Source: Singulisphaera sp. GP187 (GTDB lineage: Bacteria; Planctomycetota; GCA-002687715). Taken from it: 34,233 bases of DNA. The notes under the pieces are model-generated. The model did not search any database. It saw only the letters and a program-made list of their open reading frames with translations, and had not been told where the DNA came from. Positions within the stretch are counted from its first letter, which is position 1. Every line of letters begins with the position of its first letter. A program made the translations under genes and the position numbers. Shown here in pieces: positions 13,670 to 24,762 of the stretch. The stretch lies in the NCBI GenBank assembly GCA_945907755.1, contig CAMDTN010000026.1, positions 1 through 34,233 of the forward strand, read 5' to 3'.

Positions 13670-15385
13670 GTGCTTCGAATCACCCTTGCCGCTCTCTTTT
13701 TCGCTGCGGGGCTCAGTGCCCAAACCATCACAGGCACCATAGTCACCAACCTCGGAGTGCCTGTTGCGAATGTCACCTTAGAGTTCAGCAACGGTGCTGT
13801 GCCACTAACTCCACTGACCAACGCTCTCGGGCAATTCAGTTGCACCGTTCCAGTGGGCACCTACGACATCACCATGGTGCCATCCGATAACACGCTTGCG
13901 CCGCGACAGTTCCTAGGCGTGGTCTTAGGCGTCGTGAACATGGGCACCATCGTGTTGCAGCCAGGCATTGCGCTGTCGGGCACGGTAATGGCGGGCGGCC
14001 TGCCACTCTCTGGCGCCGACATCAATGTTTATGACGCAGTCACCGGCGTGAAGCTGTTCATTCAGAATGACTCCACGAGTGCGCTGGGCACCTACACCGT
14101 CATCGTGCCCGCAGGCGCCTTCAATGTGCGCGGTGCGCCGCCAGCAGGATTGATCTTGGTGGCACAGATGTTCAGCAACATCAGTGTGTTCGCCACAACA
14201 ACCTTGCCGACCATGACCCTACCCGCAGGCGTGGTGCTGAGCGGCAATGTGCGCCACTCCATCACGAATGCCGCCCTCGTTGATGTGGACATTGATGTCG
14301 ACAACTACTTCACCGGCGTACGCGTCCAGACACCTTCAGACAACACCGACTCATTGGGCAACTTCAGTGTCATCGTGCCTGTGGGCGTCTTCAATATCAC
14401 GCTCGATCCACCGCCCACCATGGCGCTGCTCGCACGGCAATTCTTCGGCATCCCCGTAGGCGGCACCACCAACGCCGGCGTGCTGACGCTCCAACCAGGC
14501 TTCACCATCACAGGCACTGTGGTGGGTGCTTTGAGCGCGCCGCAGAGCGCATGCAATTTGGATGTCGACACTTATCCCGGTGGGTTCCGCATGTACACCG
14601 CGAATGACAGCACCACCGCCACCGGAACTTTCATCATGGTGGTGCCCGCTGGCACCTACACCCTGGCTGTGCATGCGCCCATCGGCTCCACCTATGTCGG
14701 CACGCGCACAGCCAGCTTCGTCGTCGGTGCCAACACCAACCTCGGCACCATCACGCTGCAGCAAGGCGTGCTTTTCAGCGGTGCGGTGACGAACTGGTTC
14801 GGGCTTCCTGAGCAGGACTGCGACATCGATGTGTATAGCCCAACAACTCTCGCAGAGTTGGTGCTGACCGGCGATGCCACCTCGGCCAACGGCAGCTACA
14901 GCGTGCGCGTGCCTCAAGGCACTTGGGGCGTGCTGTTCAAGTCGCGCAAGACTTCACTGGTGGCGGACAGCACCTATGCGAGCGTCAGCATCGGTGCTGG
15001 CGGCGGTGTGCTTTCACCTGTGCTGGGCCTGAAGCAAATTATGGTGTATCTCGACGGCGCATCGCCCAGCATGATCATCCCTCAGGGTGGTTCAGTGCCA
15101 GTGATTGCCGCCATCTATGTGCCCGGCGGTCTTAGCCCGACCACTGGCAGCCTGCAGCTTTATCTGATGGATCCCAACGGAGTCGAAACGCCGCTGTACG
15201 CACCACTGCCACTGTCACTTCCCGCGCAGTTCTTCGCCATGTGGCAAGGGTTGCCGCTGCCCTTGGCCCCTGTCAACGCCGCTTTCCTTGGAAAACAGTT
15301 CAAGTTGAAGGCGCGGATCAGCAATGGTGCCGCAGTGAACCCTGTCATCTACGACAGCGACGAATTCAGTTTCACCATTCAGTAG
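13670..15385 (+). CDS. Secreted protein with five tandem carboxypeptidase-regulatory-like domains
   Basis: A protein of 571 residues. Signal peptide MLRITLAALFFAAGLSAQ, then five repeats of about 85-90 residues at roughly 19-98, 99-187, 188-277, 278-367 and 368-455. Each has the pattern of a strand with xSGxV, a VDV/INV strand, a D-S/D-T turn, a LGxYxVxVPxGxY strand and LGTITLQxG, as in CarboxypepD_reg/Cna-B-like transthyretin-fold domains. Residues 456-571 are a different beta domain (LQLYLMDPNG). These folds usually serve as stalks or glycan/protein-binding spacers, so a surface role is likely. GTG 13670 is preferred over TTG 13625 because it starts directly at the signal peptide and has GTGAGG 9 nt upstream. 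It ends 6 bp before the glycosyltransferase gene and so is probably the first gene of the export operon. Confidence 0.82.
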   Translation: MLRITLAALFFAAGLSAQTITGTIVTNLGVPVANVTLEFSNGAVPLTPLTNALGQFSCTVPVGTYDITMVPSDNTLAPRQFLGVVLGVVNMGTIVLQPGIALSGTVMAGGLPLSGADINVYDAVTGVKLFIQNDSTSALGTYTVIVPAGAFNVRGAPPAGLILVAQMFSNISVFATTTLPTMTLPAGVVLSGNVRHSITNAALVDVDIDVDNYFTGVRVQTPSDNTDSLGNFSVIVPVGVFNITLDPPPTMALLARQFFGIPVGGTTNAGVLTLQPGFTITGTVVGALSAPQSACNLDVDTYPGGFRMYTANDSTTATGTFIMVVPAGTYTLAVHAPIGSTYVGTRTASFVVGANTNLGTITLQQGVLFSGAVTNWFGLPEQDCDIDVYSPTTLAELVLTGDATSANGSYSVRVPQGTWGVLFKSRKTSLVADSTYASVSIGAGGGVLSPVLGLKQIMVYLDGASPSMIIPQGGSVPVIAAIYVPGGLSPTTGSLQLYLMDPNGVETPLYAPLPLSLPAQFFAMWQGLPLPLAPVNAAFLGKQFKLKARISNGAAVNPVIYDSDEFSFTIQ

Positions 15386-15391
15386 CGCGCC

Positions 15392-16639
15392 ATGCACAAC
15401 GGACCTCGCATCCTCTGCTACAGCCACGACACCTACGGGCTTGGGCACTTGCGTCGCAATCTGCTGTTGGCGGAACACTTCAGCAACGCTTGCCCGAAGC
15501 GGCCATCCATTCTGATCGCCACGGGCAGCACCCGCGCTGGTTCGTTCCCAATGCCGCCGGGCACCGACACACTGAAGTTGCCGTGCATCACCAAGCGCAC
15601 TGATGGCAGCTACGCGCCACGCTCTCTGGAGGGCAGCCTCGAGGAAGTGTTGGCGTTGCGCGGCCGCCTGCTCTTGGCTGCCGTGAACGCGTTCCAGCCG
15701 CATTTCCTGTTTGTAGACCATGTGCCTGCAGGTTTGCTTGGCGAGTTACGCGAAACGCTGCACCATGTGGCGGGGATGCCGCGGCGTCCCTTCCTGTGCT
15801 TGGGGCTGCGCGACATCATCGACGAGAAACAGCGCGTTCTGTCCGAATGGCAGCGTGACGGCGTGAATGAAGTGTTGCCGCTTTACGACCGCATCTTCGT
15901 CTACGGCGACGGGCAATTGGGCAGCAGCGCCAAGGAACTCGGGCTGGAGGAGCGCTTCCCGGGCAAGGTGATTCACACGGGCTATCTCGCACGCCCACGC
16001 GCCGTCGCGCGAGCGGATGCTTTTGCGCCGTATCAACCGCGCGGCACCGAGATGCCCAGGTTTCCGCTAGGGCAGGCGCCTGTGGTGCTTGTCACCACGG
16101 GCGGTGGTGGCGACGGCCACGAAGTGCTGCGCCACTACGCCAGCTTCCTCGAGTCGCACACCAAACCTTTGCCATTCCACAGCCTCGTGGTCGGTGGCCC
16201 GCTGCTCTCACACCGCCGCACCGACGAACTGCGCCTGCGCTTCGCATCCATGACACACTCCGTCGTCTTCACCGACTTTGTTGAAGACATGGACGTGCGC
16301 ATCGCGAATGCAGCCGCCGTGGTTTGCATGGCGGGCTACAACACCGTGTCTGAAGTGTTGGCCGCGGGCACACCGGCCTTGCTGGTGCCGCGCGATGGGC
16401 CGCGCTTGGAACAGATTCAGCGCGCTAACCTGATGGCCGCGCGTGGCAGTTGCCGCACCGCACGCCTAGCGGAACTGTCGCCGCAACTATTGGACGCATT
16501 CCTCGGTGATGCCCTCAGCGGCCACTGGAAGCCCAGCGCACCACCCAACCTCGCGGGGCGCGAGCGCGTCTGCGCTGAAATGGCCGCGCTGATGGAAGGC
16601 GCGTTCAGCAAGACTCCTGCGCCCGTCGGAGGCGCGTGA
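15392..16639 (+). CDS. Predicted glycosyltransferase (COG4671-like, GT-B fold)
   Basis: A protein of 415 residues with a GT-B two-domain layout. The N-terminal HDTYGLGHLRRN motif (residues 12-23) and the C-terminal VTTGGGGDGHEVL (around 234-246), then FTDFVEDM and AGYNTVSEVLAAGTPALLVPR follow the MurG-like/COG4671 predicted glycosyltransferases. These transfer a sugar from a nucleotide donor to a lipid or glycan acceptor on the cytoplasmic side; donor and acceptor are not predictable here. No membrane segment or signal peptide. Second gene of the operon: 6 bp after the repeat-domain protein and 5 bp before the next glycosyltransferase. Confidence 0.85.
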   Translation: MHNGPRILCYSHDTYGLGHLRRNLLLAEHFSNACPKRPSILIATGSTRAGSFPMPPGTDTLKLPCITKRTDGSYAPRSLEGSLEEVLALRGRLLLAAVNAFQPHFLFVDHVPAGLLGELRETLHHVAGMPRRPFLCLGLRDIIDEKQRVLSEWQRDGVNEVLPLYDRIFVYGDGQLGSSAKELGLEERFPGKVIHTGYLARPRAVARADAFAPYQPRGTEMPRFPLGQAPVVLVTTGGGGDGHEVLRHYASFLESHTKPLPFHSLVVGGPLLSHRRTDELRLRFASMTHSVVFTDFVEDMDVRIANAAAVVCMAGYNTVSEVLAAGTPALLVPRDGPRLEQIQRANLMAARGSCRTARLAELSPQLLDAFLGDALSGHWKPSAPPNLAGRERVCAEMAALMEGAFSKTPAPVGGA

Positions 16640-16644
16640 TCTGA

Positions 16645-18966
16645 ATGGGCCGCGAGCGCATCGGCTATGTATTGAAGAAGTTCCCGCGGCTGTCTGAAAC
16701 TTTCATCTTGTCCGAATTATTGGGCGTGCAGGCAGCGGGCATCGAAACCACGGTGTTCACGCACCGCCCCGCCGACAACGAGCCGCGCCACGCAGACTTG
16801 CAAGATTTGCGTGCGGAAGTGGTGGAACTGCCAGAGAAACGCAGCCGCGTGCCTGAGATCTTGGAAGCCAGCGGCGCAGCCCGCGCAGAACTGGAAGCGC
16901 TGTTAGTGCGCGTGCGCGGCGATGGAACCGGCGAGAACCCCAACAAGCGCGGCGAAGGCCTGATCGCGCAGGGCGCCGCGTTGGCCAAGGAAGTGCGCGC
17001 CCGCAAGATCACACACCTGCACGCTCATTTTATGACTGTGGCGGCGCGCATCGCCTATGTGGCGCACTTGCTCTGCGGAGTGCGCTTCACCGTGACCAGT
17101 CATGCCAAAGACATCTGGCGCCACGATGTCGACCGCGAACTGTATGCGGCAGTAGCCGCACGCGCCCACGCCGTCGTCACCGTGTGCGACGCCAATGCCG
17201 ATTTTATTCGCAGCCAACTGCTGCGCAGCGGCCGCGTGGTGCGCATCTACAATGGCTTGCCGGAAGCCGTGCGCACGCCTCCCGCAGTAGCACGCGACGC
17301 GCAATTGATCGTTGGCGTTGGCCGACTGGTGCCCAAGAAGGGTTTCGATGTGCTGCTTGGGGCACTGCAATTGCTGGAGCAACGCGGCGTGCCCTTCCGC
17401 GCGATCATCGTCGGCAACGGCGAAGAGCACAGCGCGCTGACGCAAATGGCGCAGCGCTGCGGGCTGGATGATCTTGTCGACTTCACTGGCGCGCTGCCGC
17501 GCGAAGAAGTGCTGCGGCTCTTGGCTTCAGCGCGCGTGGCGGCATTGCCCTGCTTGCGCTGCGACGACGGCAACCAAGACGCTTTGCCCACCGTGCTGTT
17601 GGAAGCTCTCGCCTTTGGCACGCCGGTGGTGAGCACCCCGGTCGCTGGCATTCCTGAAATCGCTGACAGCGGCGAACACGGATTGATCGTGCCGCAGCAG
17701 GACATTCCAGCCACCGCAAATGCGTTACAGAGACTGCTGAGCGACGACGCGTTCTGGCAACACTGCAGCGAGCGCGGCCCTCAGCGCGTTGCTGAGCGCT
17801 TTCGCCAAGAACAGACTTTGCCGCAACTCACCGCGCTTTTTCGGGGCGAAGTCCCTGGCGCCGTCGCTGGGCGGGAATCTTTGAAAGTGCTGCTCTTATG
17901 CGCCGACTCCGGGATTGCGCCGGATGGCACCAAGGGGGCCAGTTTGCATTTGCGCGCCATGGCGCGCGCGCTGCAAGAGTGCGGGCATGAAGTGCAGATG
18001 CTCACGCGCCGCGCCCCAGCCGCTGGAGCGATGCTTGGTTTCCCTTGGGCGCAACTTGCTGACGCATCTGCGCTGGGCGACCAGCTTGCCGCGCTGAAGC
18101 CCGACTTGATTGTGGAGCGGTATTCACTGGGGCACACCGCGGCGCTGCTGGCGGCGGCGCACGCACGCATCCCTTTCGCTCTGGAAGTGAATGCTCCTCT
18201 GGTCATAGAAGCCAGACTGCATCGGGCGCACACCTTGCACGGTGGAGAATCCGAAGCTGAAGCGCTGCTGTGGCGCGAAGCGCCATTCGTGTTCGCGGTG
18301 TCGCGCCCACTGCTGGATCACATTCGCAATGTGCGCGGCAACGCCGACGGCCTGCACTTGTTGCGCAACGGTTGCGACCCAGCACTGCACCCGCAGCCCG
18401 CTGCGCCCGCAGCCGGCGTCCCCATCCTCGCCTTCCTCGGGCATCCCAAACCATGGCACGGCGTGGGCGCGTTAGTGCCCCTTGCTCAAGCGCTGCAAGC
18501 CGCAGGTGTCGCCGCGAAGCTACGCATCATCGGTGGCGGGCCCGGTGCTGACGCGGTGCTGCAGGCCGCTGCCGCTGCGGGCGTCGCAGATTTATTCAGC
18601 AGTAGTGGTGCTTTGGACGAACGCGCCGCGGCGCAAGAACTGTCCGCTGCCACTTTGCTGCTGGCGCCCTACCCGCCGTCCGATTTCTTCTGGTTCAGCC
18701 CGCTGAAACTGGTGCAAGCCGCGGTCGCTGGCGTGCCCGCAGTCACCACCGACCTTGGCGATATCGCGGAAATCACTGGCGCTGGTGGCGTGTGCGTGCC
18801 TGCGGGCGACAACGCCGCTTTCGCTGCAGCAGTCATCGCTCTGTTGCAAGATCGCCCGCGTTTGGCGAAGCTCGCAGCCGACGCCCGCCAACGCGGGCTG
18901 GCTGAGTTTCCTTGGGTTCATGTGGCCCAACGGATGCTGCAAGCCACTGGTCTGCCGACGCGATGA
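16645..18966 (+). CDS. Fused double GT4-type glycosyltransferase
   Basis: A protein of 773 residues, about twice the family length, made of two GT-B glycosyltransferase units. Unit 1 (about 1-405): KKFPRLSETFI at the start, VGVGRLVPKKGFDVLL, then the E-x7-E region EALAFGTPVVSTPVAGIPE near residue 319. Unit 2 (from about 413): LKVLLLCADS, TKGASLHLRAMARAL, ILAFLGHPKPWHG, and PLKLVQAAVAGVPAVTT, where the first Glu of E-x7-E is replaced by Lys/Gln-type residues, as in some GT4 members. The fusion suggests two sugars added in sequence by one enzyme, or one active and one regulatory unit. The TGA overlaps the ATG of the ABC gene by 4 nt. Confidence 0.85.
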   Translation: MGRERIGYVLKKFPRLSETFILSELLGVQAAGIETTVFTHRPADNEPRHADLQDLRAEVVELPEKRSRVPEILEASGAARAELEALLVRVRGDGTGENPNKRGEGLIAQGAALAKEVRARKITHLHAHFMTVAARIAYVAHLLCGVRFTVTSHAKDIWRHDVDRELYAAVAARAHAVVTVCDANADFIRSQLLRSGRVVRIYNGLPEAVRTPPAVARDAQLIVGVGRLVPKKGFDVLLGALQLLEQRGVPFRAIIVGNGEEHSALTQMAQRCGLDDLVDFTGALPREEVLRLLASARVAALPCLRCDDGNQDALPTVLLEALAFGTPVVSTPVAGIPEIADSGEHGLIVPQQDIPATANALQRLLSDDAFWQHCSERGPQRVAERFRQEQTLPQLTALFRGEVPGAVAGRESLKVLLLCADSGIAPDGTKGASLHLRAMARALQECGHEVQMLTRRAPAAGAMLGFPWAQLADASALGDQLAALKPDLIVERYSLGHTAALLAAAHARIPFALEVNAPLVIEARLHRAHTLHGGESEAEALLWREAPFVFAVSRPLLDHIRNVRGNADGLHLLRNGCDPALHPQPAAPAAGVPILAFLGHPKPWHGVGALVPLAQALQAAGVAAKLRIIGGGPGADAVLQAAAAAGVADLFSSSGALDERAAAQELSAATLLLAPYPPSDFFWFSPLKLVQAAVAGVPAVTTDLGDIAEITGAGGVCVPAGDNAAFAAAVIALLQDRPRLAKLAADARQRGLAEFPWVHVAQRMLQATGLPTR

Positions 18967-20672
18967 AACTGAGCTTCAAGCCCACATCCACTCTTGCTGC
19001 GGTGCGCTTGATGAGCCCTGCTTTGCGCGGCGAAGGCGGTGCCGTTGCAGGCGCCATCGTGTGCACTGTGTTCCTCGCGCTTCTGGAATTGGCGAGGCCT
19101 TGGCCCATCAAGCTGGCCTTGGATGCGTTGCTGAATGCAGATGCCACCGGACGCGAGCGCACCTTACTTGAGGCTGCTCTCGTGGTGGTTGCCATCGCCG
19201 TCAGCGCAGGCTTCGTGCAATTGGGGCGTGCGGCGTTGGCCGCACGCACAGGCCGCAAGATCACCGCGCGCGTGCGTGCGCGCGTGTTCGAGCACATCTT
19301 GCGGCTGCCCTTCGCAACACAGCGCACGCTGCACAGTGGCGACCTCCTCACCCGCGTCACCGGCGATGTCAGCATGGTGCGCGACCTCTTGTTCACTACT
19401 TGGGTTGGGGCGCTGGAGCGCGTGCTGGTTCTTGCTGGCACGGCCGTTGTGCTGTTCGTCATCCATCCACTGTTCGCGCTGCTCGTGCTGGCACCATTAG
19501 TGCCTTTCGTATTGGTGTTGCGTTTGGCCAGCATCAAGATGCGCCGCTTGGTGCGCCGCCAGCGCGAAGGCGAAAGCACCAACGCGATTCACGCATCCGA
19601 AAGTTTTCGGCAGTTGCGTTTGGTGAAAACTCTCGGTGCCGAGGCTGTGCTGGCGAAATTTTTCCGCCGCGGCACCCGCAACGCAGAACGCGTCGGCGCC
19701 AAAGCCGCGATGGCCGCGGCGCGCATGGGCCTGTCTGCCGAATTGCTCACCGGCGCGGGGCTGGCACTGCTGCTGTGGGTCGGCGGCGGCGCGGTGCTCG
19801 ATTCAGGCATGGACGCCAGCATCTTGGTTGTGCTCGTGTCCTATGCGCGCTCGATTTACAAACCGTTGCGTGGTTTGTCCAAGGAAGGCACGCGCATGGC
19901 GAAAGCCACCGCCTGCGCCGAGCGCATCCAAGAATTATTGCTGCTGGACGCCCCCGCAGAAGACGCCGGGCCAGACATTCCGCCGGGGCGCCACACGCTG
20001 GTGCTGCAAGACGCTGCGCATTTGCACGACGGCCAGCGCGGCTTGCAAAGCTTGAGCGCCGAACTGCGCCCCGATGAACTCACCGTCGTGGTGGGCGGCA
20101 ACGGTGCGGGCAAGAGCACGCTCGCGGCCTTGTTGCTGCGCTTGCTGCCGCTGCACAGTGGCAGCATGCGTTGCGCGGGCGAAGAAGCTGCATCGTGGTC
20201 CTTGCGCAGTTGGCGTGCGCGGTGCGCATATGTGCCGCAAGAGATCCATCTGTTCGGCATGACGGTGCGCGAGAATTTGTTGCTGGCGCGCTCTGACGCC
20301 GACGAAGCCGCACTGTGGCGCGCGCTGGACATCGCTCAAGCGCAAAGCTTGGTGGAACGACTGCCCCAAGGCTTGGACACCATGTTGTCCGAAGCAGGCG
20401 CCAGTTTGTCTGGCGGCGAAGCGCGGCGGCTGATGCTGGCCCGCGCTGCATTGCGCGATGCTGCGTTGATTGTGTTGGACGAACCGCTCGCTGGCATCGA
20501 TCCAGTCGCTCGGCCTGCTGTCATCGCCGCAGTGCGCAGTCTCGCGCGCGGGCGCTGTGTGATCGTCATCACGCACGAAGCCATCGCAGAACTCAATGCC
20601 GATCAACAACTCACCCTCGACGAAGGGCGCCTTGTGCATTGCGAACGCCGCGCAGGGCGAGCCACTTCATGA
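18963..20672 (+). CDS. ABC half-exporter (membrane plus ATPase domain)
   Basis: A protein of 569 residues: a six-helix exporter membrane domain (about residues 15-305, with the EFRQLRLVKTLGAE-type coupling segment) followed by an ATPase domain. Walker A GGNGAGKST is near residues 376-384; the Q-loop is VPQE, the signature SLSGGEARR, Walker B LIVLDEP and the H-loop ITHE. It should dimerise and, given the flanking glycosyltransferases and outer-membrane barrel, most likely flips a lipid-linked or free glycan across the inner membrane (inference). ATG 18963 lies in an ATGA overlap with the upstream stop; the downstream gene also starts in an ATGA overlap (20669-20672), so all are translationally coupled. 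Confidence 0.9.
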   Translation: MKLSFKPTSTLAAVRLMSPALRGEGGAVAGAIVCTVFLALLELARPWPIKLALDALLNADATGRERTLLEAALVVVAIAVSAGFVQLGRAALAARTGRKITARVRARVFEHILRLPFATQRTLHSGDLLTRVTGDVSMVRDLLFTTWVGALERVLVLAGTAVVLFVIHPLFALLVLAPLVPFVLVLRLASIKMRRLVRRQREGESTNAIHASESFRQLRLVKTLGAEAVLAKFFRRGTRNAERVGAKAAMAAARMGLSAELLTGAGLALLLWVGGGAVLDSGMDASILVVLVSYARSIYKPLRGLSKEGTRMAKATACAERIQELLLLDAPAEDAGPDIPPGRHTLVLQDAAHLHDGQRGLQSLSAELRPDELTVVVGGNGAGKSTLAALLLRLLPLHSGSMRCAGEEAASWSLRSWRARCAYVPQEIHLFGMTVRENLLLARSDADEAALWRALDIAQAQSLVERLPQGLDTMLSEAGASLSGGEARRLMLARAALRDAALIVLDEPLAGIDPVARPAVIAAVRSLARGRCVIVITHEAIAELNADQQLTLDEGRLVHCERRAGRATS

Positions 20673-22930
20673 GCTGGGCGGAGTTGTTCGCGAGTTGCGC
20701 CCCGTTGTTGAGCGAGTCGCAAACTCTCGCATTGTTCCGCGCTGCCGGAGTGGAAGTGGATTCCATTCAGCCACTGTGGCGCAGGTTGTCGCCGCGACCA
20801 CCACAGCGTTTCTCGTGGCTGCTGCGCCGAGGCGAGGAAAGCCAGCTTGCTGCCGTCATCGTGATGCCCGCGCCGCGAGCGGCAGAAGTGCTGGACAAGT
20901 GGACGCGCCTGCACCCGCAAGAAACCGCATTCGGTCCCGGAGTGCGCGCGTTGCCGAACGCGCTTAGGTTTGGCGGCGACTCCGCCGCGGGTGCGCTGCT
21001 GTTTCTCTGGCCCAATGATCGCGAATTGCGCGACGCCAAACACATCGCCGATTTGGACAAGCTCAAACGCTTGCTGCCAGAAGCCGATGGCGCAGTGCCC
21101 GCGGGCTGGCGCGTGCGTGGCAAGCAATCGCAACTGCGTTGGGTGCGCTTCAAGCCTGAAACCCGCGCTGTGGCGCGGTTCGAATTTGGCCTGAAAAACG
21201 ATGCCACTGGCGCCACTAACCAACGCGCGCTGTATTTGCGCTTGTTCCAAGATGCGCGTGGAGCGCGGCTGGACACACTGCTGCGCCATCTCGCGCTGCA
21301 CACACCAACATTGCGTGCCCCACAGGCCTGCGGCGTTCTGTTCGAAGGCCGCTGCCAATTGGAAAGCGTCGTTGCAGGCAAGCCTTTAGACGCCAGCCGC
21401 GCCCTGCCGCGCGTCCGCGAAATGGTCGCGGCCATGCAACTCTTACACAACACTCCATGCCTCACGCAATCGGGCGTGCAAGACCGCGGTGCCGACTTGG
21501 ACGATGTTTCACTGTTGGCCCCAGAGCTCACTGGATTGGTGGAAGAGGTGCGCGCCGCGTTGCGCGATGCACAACAACACTGCACGCCAGCGCTGGTTCA
21601 CGGCGACCTGTACCTCTGGCAATTTCTCGCCGATGAACATGGCGTGGGCCTGATCGACTTCGAACGCGCTGGGCCTGGCTACATGGAAGATGACATCGGC
21701 CTGCTCTTGGCGCACACCACCCTCGCGCACGAAGAAAACGCCGACGCAGCCGCCTCAGTTTTCCGCGAATCTCTGTTGCATGAACTTGGCCGCAGTCCCG
21801 GCTGGTTTCAGCGCGCCGAAGCAGCAGCCCTTGCGGCGTTGGCCTTGGGCCCGCTCCGCCGAGGGCTGCCCGACGCGTTGCAGCGTGCTGAACAACGATT
21901 GCACTTAGCACTGTTGCGCTTGCGCGCCTTTGCGGTGCCTCCGCTGCATGATTCCGCAGAACTGCGCGTGGGCGGGCTCCTGTGCGACAAGTTGCACCCG
22001 CGGCTTGCTGGCTTATGGCCGGGACGCTTCGTGGATGCCGCTGGACGCAGCGCCCATGGCCTGTACGACAGCGCTCTCAAGACTGTGCGCTTGCTGGAAG
22101 CCAACGAAGACCCTCTTTCTTGTGGCGGAGAGCTTGTCGCTTGGCGGCCGTTTTCGCGCGCCGTGCTGCGGCGGACTGACGCAACCGGCCCTGTGTTCGT
22201 GAAACGCTACGCCGGCAGCAAGGCGAAGCTCGCGCGCAAGCGCCACGCGTTGGTGCAAGAAGTGGCCGCACGCGTGGCGGGGTTTCCTGAAATCGCGGCC
22301 ACGCTTTCTGGTGCCGACAACGAATTGGTCACCACTGCGCTCGCTGGCACGCCCTTGCACGATTTGTTGATGCGTGGCGATTCGTCGGCTGCGCTGCACC
22401 AAACCGGAACTCAACTGGCACGCTTCCACAGCAGCGCTGCTCCGGATGTGCCTGTCACCGCGCGGCCCACCACGGCGTTCCTCCTTGCAGTGCTGCAACA
22501 GTTTTCTCCGAACTTGGTGGCGCGCGCAGAACGCAGCGCCGCGAACTTGGTGGCGCCTTCCGACGAGCGTCGCTTCTTGTGCCACGCAGATTTGCATGAT
22601 CGCAATGTGCTGGTGCACCCTAGCGGCATCGGGTTGATCGACTTGGACATGGTGCAGCCGGGCGACCCTGATGAAGACATGGGCAACCTCGCGGCCCACT
22701 GTGTCCTGCGCGCGCTGCAGCGAGGAACTACTGCGGAGGCCGGCTTCCGCGATGCCCGCATCTTGCTTGCCGCGTGGCGCGCCAACGGCGCAGGCACGGG
22801 GCGCGAATCCGCCGCCGCCGCACGCACCTTCTTCCGACTGGCGGTGCTCTACACCTTGCGGCGGCGCTGGAGGCCGCTCACTCCAACCTTGCTGGCTTTG
22901 GTGGACGAAGCCGGAGCCATCTGCCCATGA
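20669..22930 (+). CDS. Tandem APH-like phosphotransferase (two kinase units)
   Basis: A protein of 753 residues with two aminoglycoside-phosphotransferase/choline-kinase-fold units. Unit 2 has a complete Brenner motif (HADLHDRN near residue 637, then LIDLDM). Unit 1 has HGDLYLWQ near residue 310, then LIDFE: the catalytic Asp is kept, but the metal-binding Asn of H-x-D-x4-N is Gln, and unit 1 may be weakened. The first 130 residues are not recognised. Such kinases phosphorylate sugars, choline, ethanolamine-type groups or antibiotics; in this operon a sugar or glycan-lipid substrate is more likely than resistance (inference from neighbours). ATGA overlaps on both sides (20669-20672 and 22927-22930) place it firmly within the operon. 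Confidence 0.83.
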   Translation: MSWAELFASCAPLLSESQTLALFRAAGVEVDSIQPLWRRLSPRPPQRFSWLLRRGEESQLAAVIVMPAPRAAEVLDKWTRLHPQETAFGPGVRALPNALRFGGDSAAGALLFLWPNDRELRDAKHIADLDKLKRLLPEADGAVPAGWRVRGKQSQLRWVRFKPETRAVARFEFGLKNDATGATNQRALYLRLFQDARGARLDTLLRHLALHTPTLRAPQACGVLFEGRCQLESVVAGKPLDASRALPRVREMVAAMQLLHNTPCLTQSGVQDRGADLDDVSLLAPELTGLVEEVRAALRDAQQHCTPALVHGDLYLWQFLADEHGVGLIDFERAGPGYMEDDIGLLLAHTTLAHEENADAAASVFRESLLHELGRSPGWFQRAEAAALAALALGPLRRGLPDALQRAEQRLHLALLRLRAFAVPPLHDSAELRVGGLLCDKLHPRLAGLWPGRFVDAAGRSAHGLYDSALKTVRLLEANEDPLSCGGELVAWRPFSRAVLRRTDATGPVFVKRYAGSKAKLARKRHALVQEVAARVAGFPEIAATLSGADNELVTTALAGTPLHDLLMRGDSSAALHQTGTQLARFHSSAAPDVPVTARPTTAFLLAVLQQFSPNLVARAERSAANLVAPSDERRFLCHADLHDRNVLVHPSGIGLIDLDMVQPGDPDEDMGNLAAHCVLRALQRGTTAEAGFRDARILLAAWRANGAGTGRESAAAARTFFRLAVLYTLRRRWRPLTPTLLALVDEAGAICP

Positions 22931-24762
22931 AACTCCTACTGCTCGCACTGTTCGCGTTGTTAGTGGCGTGCGCACCCTTCGACCCCGGCGCACCACAGGA
23001 TTTACCCGCAGGTTTTCCCGGCGGCGTGAACTTGGGCCCAGGGTATTTGCAACGCCGCCAGTGCGTTGAAGCACGCGGGCATTGGGATGGCAGTATTTTT
23101 CGCGCCACACGTTTCGTGGCGAAAGACGCAGACGACGAGGTGGTGCTGCGCGGTGAGGTGGTGGCAGTGACGCCGCTGTCGCATGTGATTGTGGGTGGCG
23201 CGCATCTGGCACTGGAAGCGGAAAGCCGCTTCTTTGATGCGGAAGGCGCTGTGTTGCAGCCGGAAAACCTGAGTGTTGGCGCGTGGGTGAAAGCGGAGTG
23301 CATCGAACGCGCCGACGGACTTGCCCTGCGCAAGCTCTCAGTGCGCAACCGACCTGAAGGAGCGCTGGACGAAATCCAAGGCACCATCACACTGGCCGAC
23401 CGGAAACGCCACCGCTTAGAAATTGGAGGCTTGCCCGTGCGCTTCGATGCGCGCGCGCCGGTGGGGTGGGCTGTGAAAGACACCGCCGTCCCTGCGCCGG
23501 ATGTTTCCGCGCGCGAATTCAGTGCCGACAACAACAGTGGCCTCGCGCGTGTGCGCCAACTCGATGACGACGACCTTGCCTTTGCCGACCAACACCGCGT
23601 CACTGATTGGTTGCGCTTCGCGGGTGAAGTGCAGTACGACATGGAATGGCGCGGTAATCACGACTTGCAAGACTGGCAAAAGCGCGACCGCCTGATCCAC
23701 GAGCTTTCCGCCACGCTGGAACTGAGCATGCAGTTCTCGCGCAAAGTATCGGCCTTCACCAAGCTGCATTTGAGCTCTGCCGATGTCCTCTTCGATCAAG
23801 ACAACAACATCGACCTCGGCCAATCCGTACGCGTCGATGAGAGCTTCGTGCTGTTGGAAGACTTGATCGCGCCCGGTGTTTCTTTGCAGGTTGGCCGTCA
23901 AGATTTCGATGATGGCCGCGAATGGCTGATGGACGACACGCTGGATGCGGCGCGGCTCTGGCTGAATCTCGATGAAAGCGTGTTCGAGGCTTCCGTGAGC
24001 CGCAAGGAGTTCACCTCAGATCCGCAGCACGATGGCGTGGACAACTGGCTGCTCGCGTGGCACGGCCAGCCGCTGCGGGGCACTACAGCGACGCTCTATC
24101 ACATGGAACGGCAGCGCGACACCGCCATCACGATGGACCGCGCGTGGACGGGATTCACCGCAGAGTTCAGTGATTCCGACTGGGTGCTTTGGGGCGACGG
24201 TGCGCTGTTGCGCGGTGAAGAAGGCCTGAACAGATTGCACTCATGGGGTTTGGATTTCGCCGCCATGTGGGCGCCCAGCGGCGTGGCTTGGCGTCCATCG
24301 CTGTACGCCGGTTGGGCCAAAGGCAGCGGCGCGTCGTTCCCAGCGCAGAACTTCCAAGATGGCACCTTCCGCCAGAGTGGTCTGAACGACAACAACGACC
24401 GCTTCAACGGCATCACTAGTTTTCGTTACCTCGGCGAGTTGATGCAACCGGAGCTCGCGAACATGCAAGTGCTGACGCTCGGCGCGGGCGTGCGCTTGGA
24501 CAGCGACTTCTCACTCGATGTTGTGTACCACCAGTATTCGCAATCCGTGCCCATGGCCCACTTGTTCGACACGCGCTTGCGCCTGACGCCGCAAGGGATT
24601 GATGTGCGGCTGGGCAGCGAAGTGGACTTGATCCTCGGCGTTGATTGCATTCCGGGAGTCGAGATGGAATTGGTGCTGGCGTGGTTCGATCCAGGGCGGG
24701 CGTTCGCATCAAACGCCGACGACGCTTGGTTCATGACTCTGAAGATCGAGCACCGTTTCTGA
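22927..24762 (+). CDS. Lipidated AlgE-like outer-membrane beta-barrel with DUF5666-like domain
   Basis: A protein of 611 residues. Lipoprotein signal: MKLLLLALFALLVAC, lipobox LVAC with Cys15. Residues about 55-175 hold two DUF5666-like beta repeats (LRGEVVAV, LSVGAWVKAEC, IQGTITLAD). From about 210 to the end the sequence follows the alginate-export (AlgE-like) barrel family: VSLQVGRQDFDDGREWLMDDTL-like motif, alternating strands, and a C-terminal aromatic end (LKIEHRF). AlgE-type barrels let anionic polysaccharides cross the outer membrane. Being last in a glycosyltransferase/ABC/kinase operon, it is the likely exit pore for the product. A lipid anchor on this barrel family is unusual. Starts in an ATGA overlap with the kinase gene. 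Confidence 0.82.
   Translation: MKLLLLALFALLVACAPFDPGAPQDLPAGFPGGVNLGPGYLQRRQCVEARGHWDGSIFRATRFVAKDADDEVVLRGEVVAVTPLSHVIVGGAHLALEAESRFFDAEGAVLQPENLSVGAWVKAECIERADGLALRKLSVRNRPEGALDEIQGTITLADRKRHRLEIGGLPVRFDARAPVGWAVKDTAVPAPDVSAREFSADNNSGLARVRQLDDDDLAFADQHRVTDWLRFAGEVQYDMEWRGNHDLQDWQKRDRLIHELSATLELSMQFSRKVSAFTKLHLSSADVLFDQDNNIDLGQSVRVDESFVLLEDLIAPGVSLQVGRQDFDDGREWLMDDTLDAARLWLNLDESVFEASVSRKEFTSDPQHDGVDNWLLAWHGQPLRGTTATLYHMERQRDTAITMDRAWTGFTAEFSDSDWVLWGDGALLRGEEGLNRLHSWGLDFAAMWAPSGVAWRPSLYAGWAKGSGASFPAQNFQDGTFRQSGLNDNNDRFNGITSFRYLGELMQPELANMQVLTLGAGVRLDSDFSLDVVYHQYSQSVPMAHLFDTRLRLTPQGIDVRLGSEVDLILGVDCIPGVEMELVLAWFDPGRAFASNADDAWFMTLKIEHRF

Follow-up and report, generated by a model that had tools for sequence, protein, structure and literature searches.

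Bacterial glycans are exported by three textbook routes, namely the Wzx/Wzy, ABC-2, and synthase pathways. An operon that mixes an MsbA-type pump, an AlgE-type pore, and two kinases, all complete in one unit, raises the question of what it produces and how that product leaves the cell. The operon lies in a window of 34,233 nucleotides, which is the whole stretch of Singulisphaera sp. GP187 DNA analyzed here, and this window sits on contig C26 of a host genome of 2.68 Mb (94 contigs, 97% complete). Domain calls made with Pfam and NCBIfam profiles give the following six genes.

g1, 13670-15385, + strand: secreted protein with CarboxypepD_reg (beta-sandwich) repeats (Pfam PF13620, two copies, E=1e-14)
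g2, 15392-16639, + strand: GT28/MurG-like GT-B glycosyltransferase (Pfam PF04101, Glyco_tran_28_C, E=5e-11)
g3, 16645-18966, + strand: fused GT4 pair, with GT4a at about 16645-17850 and GT4b at about 17851-18966 (Pfam PF13692/PF00534, two stretches)
g4, 18963-20672, + strand: type-IV (MsbA-fold) ABC half-exporter, predicted to serve the inner-membrane step (PF00664, 3e-33; PF00005, 6e-28)
g5, 20669-22930, + strand: fused APH-fold kinases, with K1 at about 20669-21979 and K2 at about 21953-22930 (PF01636, 3.6e-22, both halves)
g6, 22927-24762, + strand: AlgE-type outer-membrane barrel lipoprotein (PF13372, Alginate_exp, 2e-14)

Direct reading of the sequence confirms the layout given in a preliminary description of this DNA: six genes, gaps of 6 bp (g1-g2) and 5 bp (g2-g3), and three ATGA overlaps at positions 18963 (g3/g4), 20669 (g4/g5), and 22927 (g5/g6). 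The g1 start codon is GTG and is preceded by the Shine-Dalgarno-like sequence AAGTGAGG. The profiles also support the domain calls made at that time, giving CarboxypepD_reg and GT28 for the first two genes, followed by the double GT4, the ABC protein, the double APH, and Alginate_exp. Upstream of the operon lies hutI (imidazolonepropionase, NCBIfam), and among the downstream genes scanned are those for a beta-lactamase-fold protein and for an amidase; no glycan-synthesis-like genes were seen in the scanned flanks.

On sequence evidence, g2-g6 (15392-24762) is one instance of a conserved module composed of GT28, GT4a, GT4b, ABC, K1, K2, and AlgE barrel. When 99 relatives were queried with the kinase only, strong matches (E<1e-10) were obtained in 10 other genomes. 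The ABC gene adjoins the kinase in all 10, and an AlgE gene is present in nine, which bears out the earlier expectation that the double kinase co-occurs with the AlgE-like gene; in the tenth genome the contig stops inside the kinase. The counterparts of g3 and g5 are frequently two separate genes each in relatives, and GT4a and GT4b are split in most, whereas both reside in a single fused frame in the window. K1 and K2 share a single reading frame in 11 loci, including those of one Nitrospirota member, a Zixibacterium, gammaproteobacteria, and sphingomonads, and a Paracoccus plasmid copy encodes one kinase of 740 aa, as long as a fused pair would be. Long frames spanning kinase and barrel also occur in several GC-rich genomes, and those examined outside one family are not fusions.

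The module is absent from two genomes of the same genus and is therefore patchy. Scores of the barrel profile are bimodal among 294 Planctomycetota genomes, of which 28 (host included) exceed 300 bits while the next best reaches 106, such that carriers make up about a tenth of those sampled. A scan of GTDB genomes seeded with the barrel alignment yielded 80 loci, which were then subjected to profile searches; this query favors module members, and the counts from the scan are biased accordingly. Carriers in this barrel-seeded scan belong to the Planctomycetota, Alpha-, Beta-, and Gammaproteobacteria (many of them environmental), Nitrospirota, Zixibacteria, Acidobacteriota, and Verrucomicrobiota (an Opitutaceae MAG). 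At least four core genes are found in 59 loci, with the window and Escherichia coli counted in. GT28, GT4, ABC, and kinase genes accompany the barrel in 47 of the 60 loci having 6 kb upstream of it, and ABC and kinase genes in 34 of the 43 having 8.5 kb on each side. When the seven genes are compared two by two, their distances correlate for 21 of 21 pairs (rho 0.21-0.61, 27 dereplicated loci; at most 1/500 permutations as high), and species history explains part of this correlation. A chance neighborhood was rejected on the basis of the kinase neighbors in relatives and the barrel-scan loci with the full gene set, and the earlier proviso that the neighbors might not be conserved in any relative gives way to a gene set kept together across many phyla. 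The six-gene unit as originally drawn is retained for g2-g6 but not for its first member: of the 59 module loci, only 12 have g1-related genes beside them, either upstream of the core or downstream of it, and by this distribution g1 is a frequent but optional partner rather than a core component.

The module also occurs in E. coli, where plasmids of 18 of 5,426 complete genomes carry its seven genes in unchanged order with a nucleotide sugar dehydrogenase after them. This cassette of eight genes, including the UDP-sugar dehydrogenase, is flanked by IS remnants, and its plasmid copies are at least 99% identical. The sources of the carriers are cattle, pig, crow, and food, along with one human-associated record; cattle, food, and other animals predominate. 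Public annotation names the products by domain only, and the annotated start of the AlgE gene is probably too late, because the reading frame runs on upstream as far as a start that resembles a signal peptide. The window kinase query gave no match on plasmids because the plasmid copies are too divergent; the GT28 query did recover them. The module is probably a mobile, self-contained unit for glycan secretion. Its compactness, at seven to eight genes, makes the question of its function directly testable.

Predictions of function begin with the barrel. The structural model of g6 (mean pLDDT 87.1) has two N-terminal beta domains (aa 46-181) and an 18-strand barrel (aa 229-611), whose best solved fold match is AlgE (3rbh, E 4.5e-23, TM 0.77 by target length). 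OprD-family porins come after AlgE in this search, and the barrel family profile matches AlgE with E=2e-33. Judged from the model and the profile together, the barrel and AlgE are true homologues. The lipobox LVAC of g6, in MKLLLLALFALLVAC, agrees with the lipidated barrel described previously, but this property does not extend to the whole family: the E. coli and several marine barrels have signal-like N-termini and no obvious lipobox cysteine.

For comparison of individual residues, positions were mapped onto AlgE from Pseudomonas aeruginosa after shifting the numbering by 32 residues for the signal peptide, the difference between the full length of 490 aa and the mature chain of 458 aa. The columns corresponding to Arg152, Arg353, and Arg459, which are members of the AlgE selectivity ring (PMC4118822), are mostly Asp (36/57), Asn (39/57), and Glu (42/57), and Arg is retained at the Arg152 column in 8 of 57 barrels. 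Because these three arginines are not conserved, the pore is unlikely to select alginate as AlgE does. The module barrel thus resembles AlgE in sequence, fold, and strand number, but differs in its ring columns and in having its own N-terminal beta domains. Likewise, alginate secretion employs a synthase channel, whereas the module has an ABC pump and the six genes include no GT2 synthase. An alginate locus was rejected because the ring arginines are not kept and GT2 is absent.

The inner-membrane component also departs from the familiar routes. Its architecture, one ABC_membrane domain (TMD) fused to one ABC_tran domain (NBD), is shared with type-IV exporters such as MsbA, PglK, and NdvA, whereas ABC-2 systems (Wzm/Wzt, KpsMT) use a separate permease and ATPase. 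We built a tree from 54 module ABCs, the exporters of seven carrier genomes and of the window genome, and five E. coli references. In this tree, made by a quick method and with the glycan-exporter references NdvA and PglK not among its rows, 53 module rows and five further module ABC copies group into a single clade (SH-aLRT 100) that is separate from MsbA, CydCD, and MdlAB. Four of the five further copies are identical to tree rows, and one comes from the L045 genome, just beyond the fetched stretch; the module ABC of locus L069 falls outside the clade on a long branch. All NCBIfam scores lie under the cut-offs, those of the NdvA, PglK, and HepA models far below. Assignment as MsbA or as a drug exporter was rejected in view of the separate clade, and the grouping with lipid or drug exporters that could have undone the original proposal is not observed in this quick tree.

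Wzx/Wzy systems bring together a flippase, a polymerase, a PCP, and an OPX protein, and none of these is found among the six genes or in the scanned flanks. By profile scan, the operon lacks Wxz-type flippase (Wzx), polymerase, PCP, OPX, and GT2 synthase alike, and it has no initiating transferase or sugar-nucleotide gene. The earlier statement that the locus is not of the Wzx/Wzy, synthase, or ABC-2 type therefore holds for the window operon. Other contigs of the host genome encode four initiating transferases, two of PF00953 and two of PF02397, and a single OPX protein. The module is thus distinct from the ordinary exopolysaccharide gear of the host, from which it may borrow an initiating enzyme.

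A structure model built on K1 alone (mean pLDDT 92.8) shows the APH/choline-kinase fold and carries an additional N-terminal beta domain. The catalytic HxD and the metal-binding Asp are invariant in 45 K1 rows and 48 K2 rows, and K1 has an invariant Gln where Asn is usual. The solved structures closest to the module kinases are kinases of drugs, sugars, and choline. Maltokinase, glucosamine kinase, and corramycin phosphotransferase are among the PDB profile matches, the last being the best match of K2. The module kinases share the fold, HxD, and metal Asp with the APH-fold sugar kinases, but differ from them in the K1 N-terminal beta domain and in being paired within an export operon. A parallel in function is offered by WbdD, the chain-terminating kinase of the ABC-exported E. 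coli O9a O-antigen, which likewise is a kinase in an ABC-type glycan export pathway. Profile matches to WbdD are weak (E 0.03-0.05), however, and the module proteins are paired APH folds in which no methyltransferase or coiled coil is seen.

Among the glycosyltransferases, the best PDB match of g2 is MurG (1.5e-6), and 57 columns are invariant among nine module GT28 members including that of E. coli. The g3 protein matches an EpsE-like NCBIfam model (4e-58) below its cut-off. Homologous GT28 and GT4 enzymes, together with a second glycosyltransferase, occur in redA-redB type loci of rhizobia and in similar loci of roseobacters and Azospirillum. A nucleotide sugar dehydrogenase lies near some of these loci, as it does with some module copies. 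In contrast to the module, the stretches read contain no AlgE barrel and no APH kinases, but instead ABC genes of the oligopeptide type and a long ABC protein (with a cNMP-binding domain in the one scanned), as well as a His-phosphatase and a deacetylase in some. A search of the open-licence literature yielded no account of the module. It is apparently undescribed, a provisional statement because subscription papers and preprints lay outside the search.

Considering these components together, the operon very likely encodes a pathway for the assembly and export of a glycan, and we assign a probability of roughly 0.6 to the complete reading, in which a glycan is assembled, it or its acceptor is phosphorylated, and the product is exported by the ABC protein and exits through the AlgE-type barrel. 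In the cytoplasm, GT28 and the two GT4 enzymes would use host nucleotide sugars to assemble a short glycan or repeat on an acceptor encoded outside the module. The absence of a polymerase suggests either an oligosaccharide or a processive GT4, and the lack of an initiating enzyme in the module points to host lipid carriers or a soluble acceptor. Ahead of export, K1 and K2 would phosphorylate this glycan or the acceptor, and the phosphate might serve as a cap or as a tag for export, comparable to that made by WbdD on O9a. A homodimer of the MsbA-type ABC protein would carry the glycan across the inner membrane, and the barrel with its periplasmic beta domains would let it out through the outer membrane, where g1-like CarboxypepD_reg proteins, in copies that have them, may retain it on the cell surface. 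The route from ABC protein to barrel is a likely one, and the evidence leans toward a glycan that reaches the outer membrane in soluble form and not linked to a lipid. For the phosphorylated surface glycan of the preliminary description, assembly and export are well supported, while we only infer the placement of the phosphate on the glycan itself, as we do the glycan substrate, the phosphate position, and a direct hand-over from ABC protein to barrel. From sequence, the odds that K1 and K2 modify the glycan itself appear even.

A related pathway, which we consider rather unlikely, would have the ABC protein flip a lipid-linked oligosaccharide in the manner of PglK, with the glycan being released from its lipid, or joined, within the periplasm and only then reaching the barrel. 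MurG acts on polyprenyl-PP sugars, and the MurG-like GT28, the MsbA/PglK type of the ABC protein, and the two PF00953 and two PF02397 enzymes of the host are consistent with such a scheme. However, the window operon has no initiating enzyme, lipid-cleaving enzyme, or ligase, and g4 scores only 99 bits with the PglK model against a cut-off of 1000. It is somewhat less likely still that the kinases act on something other than the exported glycan, either by making sugar phosphates, by phosphorylating a carrier, or by regulating as protein kinases. APH-fold enzymes do include anomeric sugar kinases and choline kinases, and both maltokinase and glucosamine kinase are among the profile matches, but the operon lacks a nucleotidyltransferase to use a sugar-1-phosphate, and the two kinases are kept paired, often fused, and usually between ABC protein and barrel.

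Two further explanations are less likely again. The recurrence of g1-type proteins beside the module and the presence of OprD-family porins behind AlgE in the fold search would fit a cell-bound glycolipid or protein glycan (with g1 as acceptor) and a barrel serving as an uptake or permeability porin. We regard this as improbable, given that AlgE is clearly the nearest relative by fold and sequence and that the barrel stays with the ABC protein and kinases over many phyla. Glycosyltransferase, APH, and ABC genes are a common theme of antibiotic clusters, and this theme, along with the K2 match to corramycin phosphotransferase, recalls a small secondary-metabolite cluster whose APH-like kinases provide self-protection before export. 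This explanation is highly improbable for a locus with a window operon devoid of genes for scaffold biosynthesis, conservation across many phyla, a complete eight-gene cassette on E. coli plasmids, and an AlgE-type pore kept with the gene set. What the module makes may be a glycan of the cell surface or of biofilms that nobody has sought so far. More tentatively, the module might represent a fourth general route for Gram-negative glycans, which leads from a type-IV ABC protein to an AlgE-type porin, uses phosphorylation by paired kinases as an export signal, and has spread horizontally across many phyla and to E. coli plasmids.

Several other genes recur beside the core. Families of sigma-54 response regulators are found at 17 loci and histidine kinase families at 14, beta-helix proteins at 16, and UDP-Glc dehydrogenase at five. 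A sulfatase with DUF5666 adjoins the core at three loci and a DUF5666 repeat family at four; by a weak Pfam match, DUF5666 resembles the N-terminal domain of the barrel.

In the K1 kinase domain of the module, the catalytic loop carries an invariant Gln (Gln318 of window g5) that is present in all 45 aligned K1 rows, whereas APH kinases usually have Asn at this position. GT28 and GT4 are also found in Roseobacter, Azospirillum and rhizobial (redA-redB) loci (L029, L031, L032, L181 and L182). However, these loci carry oligopeptide-type ABC genes and a gene for a long ABC protein in place of the kinases and the AlgE-type barrel.

Among 5,426 complete E. coli genomes, 18 have an IS-flanked copy of the module together with a UDP-sugar dehydrogenase, carried on plasmids, and no chromosomal copy of the IS-flanked module was found in this set. 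One complete plasmid copy is listed here with two genes that adjoin the module in other genomes.

L033:1890-12068 (NZ_CP012501.1 159889-170067), complete IS-flanked module copy with UDP-sugar dehydrogenase, E. coli plasmid
L110:3-1457, protein with five DUF5666 domains, adjoining the module
L057:10939-12789, DUF5666-bearing sulfatase, adjoining the module

DUF5666 resembles the N-terminal domain of the AlgE-type barrel.

In one marine Planctomycete clade (L025, L039-L043, L049, L050, L059 and L092), a sigma-54 two-component pair lies upstream of the module, and genes for a beta-helix protein and ketosynthase/FabD-type proteins lie downstream. The contig of L040 (QNYK01000079.1) is titled "Bacillota," but its ABC protein falls within the Planctomycetota module ABCs in the tree, and this carrier is probably a mislabelled MAG.

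In one family of the same taxonomic order (L020, L021, L022 and L036), no stop codon closes K2, and its reading frame continues into the barrel's lipoprotein signal. This may reflect either an internal start or an odd fusion.
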